Shown here piece after piece: positions 1,752-23,388 of a stretch of DNA of 40,758 bases. The notes under the pieces were generated by a model. That model made no database searches, had not been told where the DNA came from, and saw only the letters and a list, made by a program, of their open reading frames with translations. The stretch is from Nitrospirota bacterium (GTDB lineage Bacteria; Nitrospirota; Nitrospiria; Nitrospirales; Nitrospiraceae): assembly GCA_020027965.1 (NCBI GenBank), contig JAHRHE010000011.1, forward strand, positions 1 through 40,758, in the 5' to 3' direction. Position 1 is the first letter of the stretch. Each line of letters begins with the position of its first letter. Made by a program: the position numbers and the translations under genes.

Positions 1752-1827
1752 GAGCCGCTAGCTCAGACGGTAGAGCATCGCCCTTTTAAGGCGAGGGCCC
1801 TGGGTTCGAGTCCCAGGCGGCTCACCA
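1752..1827 (+). tRNA. tRNA-Lys (UUU), CCA encoded
   Basis: A full cloverleaf can be drawn. The acceptor stem pairs GAGCCGC (1752-1758) with GCGGCTC (1817-1823), discriminator A1824, encoded CCA 1825-1827. The anticodon stem TCGCC/GGCGA encloses the loop CTTTTAA, giving anticodon UUU. The T arm is CTGGG-TTCGAGT-CCCAG. The 3' 41 bp of the gene is duplicated at 2484-2702, marking it as the probable attachment site of an integrated element. Confidence 0.97.
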
Positions 1828-1963
1828 TCACCACCTTCCCTTCGAGTGCCTGCGTCTCCGGCCATGCCGCGATCAGCGAGTGAAGCGGCCACGCCGCGGT
1901 GCAGGTCCGGGATTGTCAAGATAGCAAAGTCTGACCCCGCCTACTGATGACCCGGCCTACTTC

Positions 1964-2347
1964 CTACATAGCAATGTGTTTCTTCAGGATCTCCGAATCC
2001 TTAATCGCCGGGGTTGTTGGGGCCAGCTCGGCCGCCTTCTTGAATTCAGTCGTCGCCTCTTCATGCTTGCCCATCTTGTCGAGCGTCAGACCAAGATTGT
2101 AGTGGGCCTCAGCCAGGTTGGGATCGGCCTTAATGGCCTTGCGAAAGTGGCCTTCAGACACATCCCAGTGGCCTTGCTTATAGTGTCCGACGCCTTCATC
2201 GTTGCCCATCCGTCCGGCCGAACTGGCAGGGGACATGAGCGCTGAATCTGCTGTCGGCGTCCCACCGCCGGACTTACCGTAGTCGCACCCCACTTCAAGA
2301 ATGAGGAGCCCGAGGACGAGCCCAACAGAGAGAAAAACCTGTTTCAT
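1964..2347 (-). CDS. Small TPR lipoprotein
   Basis: This 127-residue protein has an N-terminal hydrophobic signal (residues 4-19) ending in LEVGC, a plausible though non-ideal lipobox with Cys about residue 21, so export and lipidation are inferred. The mature part holds about two tetratricopeptide repeats (roughly residues 52-115), including the typical AEAHYNLGLTLDKMGKHEEA pattern. TPRs mediate protein-protein contacts; no enzymatic domain is visible. The ATG at 2347 is preceded by a strong AAGGAGG site 6-8 bp upstream. It is the only gene between tRNA-Lys and the interrupted tRNA copy, so it may be the cargo of a small integrated remnant. Confidence 0.8.
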   Translation of the reverse strand: MKQVFLSVGLVLGLLILEVGCDYGKSGGGTPTADSALMSPASSAGRMGNDEGVGHYKQGHWDVSEGHFRKAIKADPNLAEAHYNLGLTLDKMGKHEEATTEFKKAAELAPTTPAIKDSEILKKHIAM

Positions 2348-2483
2348 GGCAACCTCCTTCCAGGATGTTTAATTGGTAACAAAGGGGCCTCTCTTGAGGA
2401 TCAGCCTACTCCTCTCACTTTTCTCTGGTCAACTCCCCGCACTTATGGAACTGACCGGATTTCTAAACCGCGTGTCGCGTTAC

Positions 2484-2702
2484 TAAGGCGAGGGCCATAG
2501 CCCGGATTATTCAGGGAGGCCGTCGCGAGACAGGTGAGGCCGAAGTCCGCCGGGGCTGCTCGGAAGCGAGGGCGACACAGGCGTACCCTGCGGTACGTCG
2601 AGGAGATCGAGCGAGAACAGCTCCGCCGGACAAGAGAATCGACTGTCGCAGTAGGCGTCCCTGAATAGTCCGGGCTCAGTTCGAGTCCCAGGCGGCTCAC
2701 CA
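2484..2702 (+). pseudogene. Partial tRNA-Lys copy (candidate att site), interrupted
   Basis: Positions 2484-2496 are identical to tRNA-Lys 1787-1799 (13 bp, from the anticodon loop on), and 2679-2702 are identical to 1804-1827 (24 bp including CCA). Between the two blocks lies a hairpin element in place of the 4 bp 1800-1803. A partial 3' tRNA copy in direct orientation is the known footprint of tRNA-targeted integration. Here the two copies enclose only about 650 bp and no integrase, so the island is probably a remnant or one of several stacked insertions. Confidence 0.85.
2499..2676. repeat. 178-bp element with 19-bp terminal inverted repeats and nested pairing
   Basis: The ends agcccggattattcaggga (2499-2517) and 2658-2676 are inverted repeats over 19 bp with a single G-T position. 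Inside, 2545-2558 pairs with 2618-2631 (12 Watson-Crick plus one G-T of 14). The block 2525-2533 pairs with 2643-2648 with a small bulge, and an apical hairpin pairs cgtacc (2582-2587) with ggtacg (2592-2597). The element can therefore fold end to end. It carries no credible gene. It has the character of a MITE or a large palindromic repeat; a structured RNA is the alternative. Confidence 0.75.
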
Positions 2703-8377: not shown

Positions 8378-8777
8378 GCGCAGAAGTCCAGCGCGGGTGT
8401 TGACCCTGCCGGATATAAGCCTTCCATAGGCCGGTACGCAGTGACAGAATCGGTGTGCTTTTGCGACATGGAGTTTCGGAACTAGCTTTGAAAACCAGGT
8501 TTTCAGGTGGTTCTTAACAAAGCACCAAGGTGAGCTACGCCCAAACCCAGCCCGCTGCCCCCCTCGCTCTTCCATATGCCATTCGCCATAAGCTATTAGC
8601 TCTTCTCTCTCAGCCATTTGCCATACGCTCTCTGCTCCCCGTCATCAACCATACGCCATATGGTATTAGCTCCTCCCCACCAGCCCCCCTGTGACCTACC
8701 TCATAGCTTTTAGTCAGGACATTCATGTGACTTCTGGTAAGCTTGAGGAGAGTGCAAGCAGGGAAAAAGAGCGATCC
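8378..8777. repeat. Gene-free stretch with GCCATACGCCAT-type repeats (copy 1)
   Basis: No gene is supported. A 17-bp odd palindrome tgaaaaccaggttttca lies at 8489-8505. From about 8537 to 8712 the sequence matches 9472-9583 in direct orientation: a shared cagcccgc... start, then units such as gccatttgccatacgc and attagctcc, then ctgtgacctac.tcatagctt. Copy 1 is longer because the catacgcc unit block is duplicated inside it. The last 60 bp lead into the TPR gene. Confidence 0.6.
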
Positions 8778-9383
8778 ATGAGTATGAAGCTCACGGTCAG
8801 TGCTGGTCTTCTCTATGCGGGCCTTGTCATCGTGGTCCTGGGTGTTGGGCCTGCCTCTGGTCAACAGGCACCTGACGAGATCATGGACATAAGCCGAAGA
8901 ATGATCGGACTTCAGAAAGCCGGGAAACATGCCGAAGCGCTGCCTTTGGCACAAAAGGCGTTAGAAATGTCGGAAGAGAACCTCAACCCCGATCATCCGA
9001 CCGTGGCCATCTACCTTGAACACCTGGCGGCACTGTATCGTACCCTCGGAGAGGGAGTGAAGGCTGAGCCCTTGCTCCGACGATCGCTGGCAGTCCGCGA
9101 GAAGGCCCTAGGCCCCGACCACCTGGCCGTGTCCTACACCCTCCACAACTTGGCCGGCCTGTATGCGGCCGAGGGAAAGTACGCTGAGGCAGAACCACTG
9201 TTCCAGCGTGCCCTAGCGATCAAGGAGATGGCGGTAGGGCCAACCGACCCCATTGTGGCAGTCACGTTAGAACACTTTTCCATCCTGCTACGGAAAACGA
9301 ATCGCATCGAGGAAGCAGCGCAATTGGAATCACGCGCGAAAGCCATTCGCGAGAAAAATCCCCCTGCGACATCCCCCAAGTGA
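8778..9383 (+). CDS. Exported TPR protein (kinesin-light-chain type repeats)
   Basis: A 201-residue protein with an N-terminal signal peptide (roughly residues 1-28, ending ASGQQ) and three to four 42-residue TPRs of the kinesin-light-chain type (roughly 45-190). The recurrent pattern is GPDHLAVSYTLHNLAGLYAAEGKYAEAEPLFQRAL spread over positions 95-145. Such repeats form a protein-binding solenoid, probably in the periplasm. The frame is open from 8691 but the ATG at 8778 gives a clean signal peptide with a GGGAAAAAGAG stretch upstream. The gene is bracketed by direct repeats (8537-8712 and 9472-9583), so it may have been moved or duplicated as a unit. Confidence 0.75.
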   Translation: MSMKLTVSAGLLYAGLVIVVLGVGPASGQQAPDEIMDISRRMIGLQKAGKHAEALPLAQKALEMSEENLNPDHPTVAIYLEHLAALYRTLGEGVKAEPLLRRSLAVREKALGPDHLAVSYTLHNLAGLYAAEGKYAEAEPLFQRALAIKEMAVGPTDPIVAVTLEHFSILLRKTNRIEEAAQLESRAKAIREKNPPATSPK

Positions 9384-9471: not shown

Positions 9472-9583
9472 ACCCCAGCCCGCCGCCTCCCGCTCCCTTC
9501 CATCTGGCATCAGCCATTTGCCATACGCCATAAGCCATTAGCTCCCCTCCGCCAGCCCCTCTGTGACCTACTTCATAGCTTTC
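9472..9583. repeat. GCCATACGCCAT-type direct repeat (copy 2)
   Basis: This is a direct repeat of the stretch at 8537-8712, here in a shorter form. The 3' portion 9520-9582 aligns without gaps to 8649-8711 with only around ten differences. Both copies lie downstream of or between genes in the accessory region. The units (gccatacgccataagccattagc) have the look of a dispersed simple-sequence repeat family. Confidence 0.6.
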
Positions 9584-9980: not shown

Positions 9981-10307
9981 ATGGGGATTCAACCGTTGCA
10001 GGATTGGGTACTGATCGAACCGTCGGAGGCCAAGGAAAAGACCGCCGGGGGGTTGGTCATCCCCGACACGGCCAAGGAGAAACCTGTAGAAGGAAAGGTC
10101 CTGGCCGTGGGGAAGGGGCGCTTGGAAACACCGGAAAAGAAGTGGGGAAGTAAACCCAAAGAGAAAGAGGAAAAGGTCTTCAAGCCCACGGTCCTCAAAC
10201 CGGGCGATCAGGTCCTCTACGAGAAATACGGAACGACCAACGTCGATCTGGACGGTAAGGAACTCGTTCTCGTCCGCGAGTCCGACATCCTCGGCTGGGT
10301 GGGGTAA
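9981..10307 (+). CDS. groES: Co-chaperonin GroES, orphan and enlarged
   Basis: GroES is the heptameric lid of the GroEL folding chamber in the cytoplasm. The protein is 108 residues against about 95 normally. Residues 1-45 include the mobile loop region (KEKTAGGLVIPDTAKEKP) and the VEGKVLAVG strand. The C-terminal part KPGDQVLYEKYGTTNVDLDGKELVLVRESDIL is standard. The extra residues sit in the roof hairpin (about 47-69) and are highly charged, with many Lys and Glu. No groEL follows; the next gene is a minus-strand PBP. The ATG at 9981 has a strong AAGGAGGAGG site. A tataat (9949-9954) lies just upstream but no good -35 is seen. Confidence 0.93.
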   Translation: MGIQPLQDWVLIEPSEAKEKTAGGLVIPDTAKEKPVEGKVLAVGKGRLETPEKKWGSKPKEKEEKVFKPTVLKPGDQVLYEKYGTTNVDLDGKELVLVRESDILGWVG

Positions 10308-23246: not shown

Positions 23247-23310
23247 CACCGGCTTGACGGCGCGCGCAATGGTTCAGCGGCGCCTTCCAATTCATCAGAG
23301 CATCTGGCTC

Positions 23311-23388
23311 GTCCCCATCGTCTAGTCTGGCCTAGGACGCTGGCCTTTCAAGCCGGCAACACGGGTTCAAATCCCGTTGGGGACACCA
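23311..23388 (+). tRNA. tRNA-Glu (UUC), CCA encoded
   Basis: The acceptor stem GTCCCCA (23311-23317) pairs with TGGGGAC ending at 23384, with discriminator A and encoded CCA at 23386-23388. The anticodon stem CTGGC/GCCGG encloses loop CTTTCAA, giving anticodon UUC. The T arm is ACGGG-TTCAAAT-CCCGT. No 3' duplicate was noticed nearby. Confidence 0.97.

Follow-up and report, generated by a model that had tools for sequence, protein, structure and literature searches.

The tRNA-Lys gene and the second copy of its 3' end

The window, i.e. the whole stretch of 40,758 nt that was analysed, is an entire contig (C254) of the 263-contig draft assembly of a Nitrospirota bacterium (G000). It carries an intact tRNA-Lys gene, followed on the same strand by a second copy of the 3' end of this gene, which is split in two by another element. 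The features that the following sections refer to are these:

1752-1827, forward strand: tRNA-Lys gene, anticodon TTT (ARAGORN; Rfam tRNA, 4.4e-15), the intact target gene, which provides the attL-side repeat with its 3' part
1783-1827, forward strand: att direct repeat in the extent it has in most relatives, running from the 5' edge of the anticodon loop (tRNA position 32) as far as the CCA at the 3' end, as judged from unsplit copies there
1828-2483, no strand: presumed eroded island interior, all that is left between the att copies, with no integrase (open reading frames; integrase search at 1e-30)
1964-2347, reverse strand: gene for a TPR-repeat (lipo)protein of 127 aa, likely cargo (Pfam TPR_2, 2.2e-14)
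2484-2496, forward strand: 5' block of attR, 13 nt of the 3' half of tRNA-Lys (repeat finder; 17 nt in G028)
2497-2500, forward strand: left flank ATAG, a putative decayed 4-bp target duplication (original CTGG), judged from the empty sites of other copies
2501-2674, no strand: core of an IS1380-type MITE, 174 nt, CCCGGATTATTC...GAATAGTCCGGG (family alignment and covariation; ends shared with IS1380 elements)
2675-2678, forward strand: right flank CTCA, the putative second decayed target copy, judged in the same way
2679-2702, forward strand: 3' block of attR, an exact copy of 1804-1827, the 24 nt that end tRNA-Lys (repeat finder)
23311-23388, forward strand: tRNA-Glu, immediately next to tRNA-Lys in the empty site of G021 and displaced here by ~21.5 kb of variable DNA

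The repeat finder returned an exact 24-nt direct repeat in the window (1804-1827 and 2679-2702) and a second repeat (1778-1799 and 2475-2496), in which the identity is complete over the final 13 nt (1787-1799 and 2484-2496). Both blocks had been described, with the correct coordinates, in an earlier reading made from the sequence alone (the sequence-only reading), and the repeats are confirmed. Together they constitute a 3' tRNA fragment that lies downstream of tRNA-Lys in unchanged orientation, as is seen in an attL/attR pair. A chance origin of the repeat is ruled out, since the reversed 24-mer, used as a control, matches nothing in 175 genomes, and since the 219-bp split copy recurs in other genera (see below). 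The length of 41 bp given for the repeat in that reading needs correction: to judge from the relatives, the att repeat was originally ~45 nt long and started at the anticodon loop (1783), its first four bases having since decayed here. The tRNA-Lys(TTT) gene is the sole one of its sequence found in the genome of the window, and a third copy of its last 24 bp, which the sequence-only reading had proposed to seek beyond the window, is absent from this draft genome. Just upstream of tRNA-Lys, at 1641-1743, there are short ACCACTGACC-like repeats with Rfam matches at chance level only.

The DNA between and beyond the two copies

Over 1962-2434, the DNA around the TPR-protein gene shares 85% identity with a segment of G040, a genome of another family of the order whose purA gene is only ~71% identical, which suggests that this segment is foreign cargo. 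A 111-bp stretch of groES (10188-10298; 92%) matches the same 4.9-kb contig of G040, the two matches lying ~1 kb apart there. As there is no integrase between the two copies, the feature in the window is the scar of an island and not an island; furthermore, the search at 1e-30 revealed no integrase of the island type in the genome of the window among the matches listed. A candidate integrase remnant next to tRNA-Lys (ETQALEGKVVM, matching 'ETQ.L') was rejected, because its tblastn score was no better than that of the tRNA part alone. In comparison with the arms found in G028 and G016, the right arm of the island is not recognisable in the window, nor is an arm of any known island.

To the right of attR, the window does not continue with the ancestral leader of tRNA-Glu that is seen in relatives. 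Since this ancestral neighbour now lies 21.5 kb from tRNA-Lys, everything from attR to position 23310, including the accessory genes, is variable DNA relative to G021. A 62-bp direct repeat (8649-8710 and 9521-9582, 87% identical) is located around another TPR-protein gene (8691-9383).

Split, empty and occupied sites in relatives

The 219-bp split copy, split at the same tRNA position, is also present in G028 (94% identity), in G031 (90%) and in G015, where it is cut by the end of a contig; it is absent from G013 and G021. When 84,980 species genomes were scanned for the right-hand junction, the only records returned were VBOJ01000032.1, MNDM01000029.1 and JAHFEU010000012.1, which are those same three relatives. 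The distance from tRNA-Lys to the split copy is ~8.0 kb in G028 and ~7.8 kb in G031, as against ~0.65 kb in the window, and the interiors of G028 and G031 are unrelated to each other. According to the sequence-only reading, an old two-block arrangement with no integrase-bearing variant would speak against integration; four genomes (G000, G028, G031 and G015) do share the arrangement, but integrase-bearing variants exist as well (see the next section).

In G021, a congener of G031, the site is empty, and tRNA-Lys is followed after ~62 bp by tRNA-Glu. The split copy of G031 has on its right the same leader and tRNA-Glu as in G021, and the flanks of G031, when joined, align to G021. The empty site thus amounts to the tRNA joined to what lies beyond the fragment, and because the DNA adjoining the split copy of G031 is exactly that found right after tRNA-Lys in G021, this copy is attR. 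Integration at tRNA-Lys leaving an attR, as first proposed from the window, is therefore shown by an empty and an occupied site within one genus, the latter with the same split attR.

Considering that the two copies are only 0.65 kb apart, and that no integrase was found in the window or, as stated above, in its genome, the second copy might instead have arisen without any integrase, when the tRNA end was duplicated illegitimately or copied by gene conversion. We consider this highly improbable, as it is already contradicted by the relatives, namely by the pair of G021 and G031, by an integrase remnant in G031 and by integrases at the same tRNA in many other genomes, and as the order and orientation of the copies are typical of displaced 3' tRNA fragments.

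Integrases and the use of tRNA-Lys in the family

In G032, an intact tyrosine integrase gene (PF00589, 4.4e-32) reads into tRNA-Lys, and a second, 48-nt copy of the tRNA end lies 5.8 kb away. An integrase of the same kind (PF00589, 6.1e-33) occurs in the tandem islands at tRNA-Lys in G016, and in both genomes the C-terminus of the integrase is encoded by the antisense strand of tRNA-Lys. A broken integrase lies beside tRNA-Lys in G031 (tblastn, 1.5e-14), and no intact integrase of the island type was found in the genomes carrying the split copy, among the matches listed. Genes for an ABC transporter, a PqqD-like protein, a nucleotidyltransferase and an HPr-kinase-like protein lie on the island of G031 (L036:9799-15805) and may form a ribosomal-peptide cluster.

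When the 44-mer and integrase matches listed were compared by their coordinates, at least 19 integrase/tRNA-Lys junctions were found in 16 genomes. The 44-mer, searched with up to three mismatches, was matched in 128 of the 175 family genomes, 55 of which have two or more copies by our own count among the matches listed, some of these being perhaps true extra tRNA genes. On these counts tRNA-Lys is a general integration hotspot in this Nitrospira-related family, in whose members the site is found empty, occupied, carrying tandem islands or eroded.

The unsplit att copies in relatives are 45-48 nt long. Five of the eight start at position 32 (three in G016 and two in G064), one at 29 (G032) and one at 36 (G013), and that of G089 is decayed; thus, six of the eight start at or just before the anticodon loop, and from these limits the crossover most likely takes place in this loop. 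ARAGORN calls two of the G016 copies as tRNA-Lys. By inspection, the right arm of G028 looks homologous to the arms of three G016 islands, with GTGCTAAATTTGTGCTAAA repeats. Intact copies and integrase-bearing variants, which the sequence-only reading had named as possible support from relatives, do exist, and the two routes it had offered for the missing interior, namely deletion or erosion of an island and the use of one site by several islands, both occur in the family.

The DNA between the copies in the window may be what is left of a later island after recombination removed its other parts, instead of an eroded original island. Tandem islands with several att copies, as in G016 and G064, and the unusual closeness of the TPR segment to another family are in line with such a history; the third copy that was not found in the genome, and the lack of an arm of any known island in the window, weigh against it, and we regard it as possible, if on the unlikely side.

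The element within the second copy

The 182-nt gap between the two attR blocks forms a strong hairpin (z = -4.7 against shuffles for the single-stranded DNA fold), and the interrupting element is bounded by an inverted repeat of 23 nt with 91% complementarity (2499-2521 and 2654-2676). The hairpin has no matching Rfam family, and is a member of a dispersed family with ~60 copies in relatives, the genomes richest in it having 13 or 14 matches; an alignment of 20 copies reveals compensatory changes in 29 of 63 pairs. Genes for IS1380-type transposases in the family (PF13701; one NF033539, 4.1e-111) are flanked by the same ends, in which CTAG is followed by a CCCGGATAATTCA-like sequence, ~1.7 kb apart, so that terminal inverted repeats are common to the hairpin and the full-length elements. 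A PF13701 transposase was not found in the genome of the window.

For seven copies in G029, the flanks were joined and sought in the genus of G029, which yielded three clear empty sites, two weaker ones, and two sites that hold another hairpin. The empty sites contain a 4-bp word between the flanks, mostly CTAG, CTAC, TTAG or CTGG, and one of the G029 copies sits at a CTGG target, as the copy in the att site would. Judging from the shared IS1380 ends and these 4-bp target words, the hairpin is a non-autonomous IS1380-type MITE with its core at 2501-2674. The insertion of a hairpin element into the tRNA copy, as had been suggested, is thereby supported and the element identified; moreover, a widespread hairpin of these genomes is in this way linked to transposition of the IS1380 type, in which a CTAG-type target is duplicated. 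Like IS1380 elements, it has CCCGGATTATTCATGA-like ends and 4-bp flanks of the CTAG type, and the ~1.7-kb copies of relatives carry the IS1380 transposase; it differs from them in its 174-nt core without a transposase and in its long covarying hairpin.

Short target duplications (4 bp, CTAG/CTGG type) are seen at the other copies, whereas the flanks in the window differ from each other. ATAG and CTCA are better read as two copies of a CTGG target that would have decayed, and this fits the comparisons with empty sites better than the loss of 4 bp upon insertion that had been proposed earlier. The outer CTAG, which pairs in some copies, was at one point taken as a part of the hairpin stem, and this was dropped, as the empty sites hold those 4 bp. 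Other hairpins with the same ends and other spacings (~120-335 bp) are present in G028, G029 and G031.

A probable history of the site

The best explanation for these observations, which we hold with high confidence, is that an island with a tyrosine integrase integrated at tRNA-Lys and produced an attR, that a MITE then inserted into this attR, and that the interior was lost or replaced lineage by lineage. The genomic island would have entered by a crossover most likely in the anticodon loop, its 45-nt copy of the gene end would have made the tRNA complete again on the attL side (within 1752-1827), and the original 3' end would have come to lie on the far side as attR. The IS1380-type MITE would have jumped into attR at CTGG and duplicated this word, either before the genera g1, g16 and g22 split or before the site moved between them. 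Replacement, erosion or overlay of the interior would have followed separately in the individual lineages, so that ~0.65 kb with one TPR-protein gene would be what is left in the genome of the window, with neither an integrase nor a recognisable island arm.

The MITE core of the window is 92.5% identical to that of G028 and 87.4% identical to that of G031, as compared to 75-78% and 70-77% for host genes, respectively, which corresponds to a divergence of 7.5-12.6% versus ~22-30%. This high identity at first suggested that the split block had spread horizontally, an argument weakened by a control pair: in G011 and G028, which represent two other genera, the MITE at a homologous site is 86% identical while its flanks are 79-81% identical, a difference that is compatible with vertical descent and slow evolution. 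In G000, G028 and G031, where the 24-nt block and the local tRNA are both visible, the two are identical, and in G028 they have a G-to-A change in common; a rough estimate for a star tree, using the rate of the MITE, predicts about four changes, which hints at possible gene conversion or continued recombination.

The MITE-bearing att site might itself still be mobile, with the crossover in the intact 24-nt block and the MITE within the attP of a living family of elements that would have spread between genera. The identities of the MITE cores, the match of the 24-nt block to the local tRNA, the wholly different cargo of the genomes, and the presence of an empty and an occupied site in the congeners G021 and G031 all agree with this. 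However, the control pair indicates that these elements evolve slowly enough for vertical descent; the start of six of the eight unsplit repeats at position 29 or 32 points to a crossover in the anticodon loop, which would leave the MITE on the chromosome; and the split-copy genomes have no intact integrase of the island type among the matches listed. We therefore think continued mobility distinctly unlikely.

Relation to known systems

Islands of the Islander type are integrated in tRNA genes and recognised by a displaced 3' tRNA fragment, with an anticodon subsite 'A' among their crossover classes (PMC4383910). The window and its relatives resemble them in having an intact tRNA gene, a 3' fragment in the same orientation downstream and variable DNA in between, and the relatives also in having a tyrosine integrase beside the tRNA and unsplit fragments that mostly start in the anticodon loop. 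The window differs in that the integrase is gone, the interval of 0.65 kb is below the Islander limit of 2 kb, and a MITE interrupts the fragment. The asn-tDNA of Klebsiella pneumoniae is a tDNA integration hotspot (PMC4891358), where, likewise, one tRNA gene takes unrelated islands in different genomes; here the gene is tRNA-Lys in a Nitrospira-related family, and one split attR is common to several genera. Fragments of tRNA genes left by mobile elements are known in prokaryotes (PMC9897764), and the window fragment is similarly a partial copy made by integration, with the difference that it is interrupted and is consequently not called as a tRNA. In a literature search, we found no paper on islands at tRNA-Lys in Nitrospira, nor on a MITE in an att site.

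The scar is a known kind of feature in a well-used hotspot, and the only unusual reading of it is that the MITE may have locked the island. As the MITE lies between the crossover point in the anticodon loop and the 3' end of the tRNA, excision by the integrase would leave a chromosome with a MITE-broken tRNA-Lys(TTT); selection might therefore have acted against excision, and attR might have become a permanent scar of three genera, the interior being free to decay or to be overlaid. We offer this idea tentatively and think it rather doubtful; the split attR could nonetheless serve as a natural experiment on the question of whether islands can be immobilised by a small insertion in their att site.
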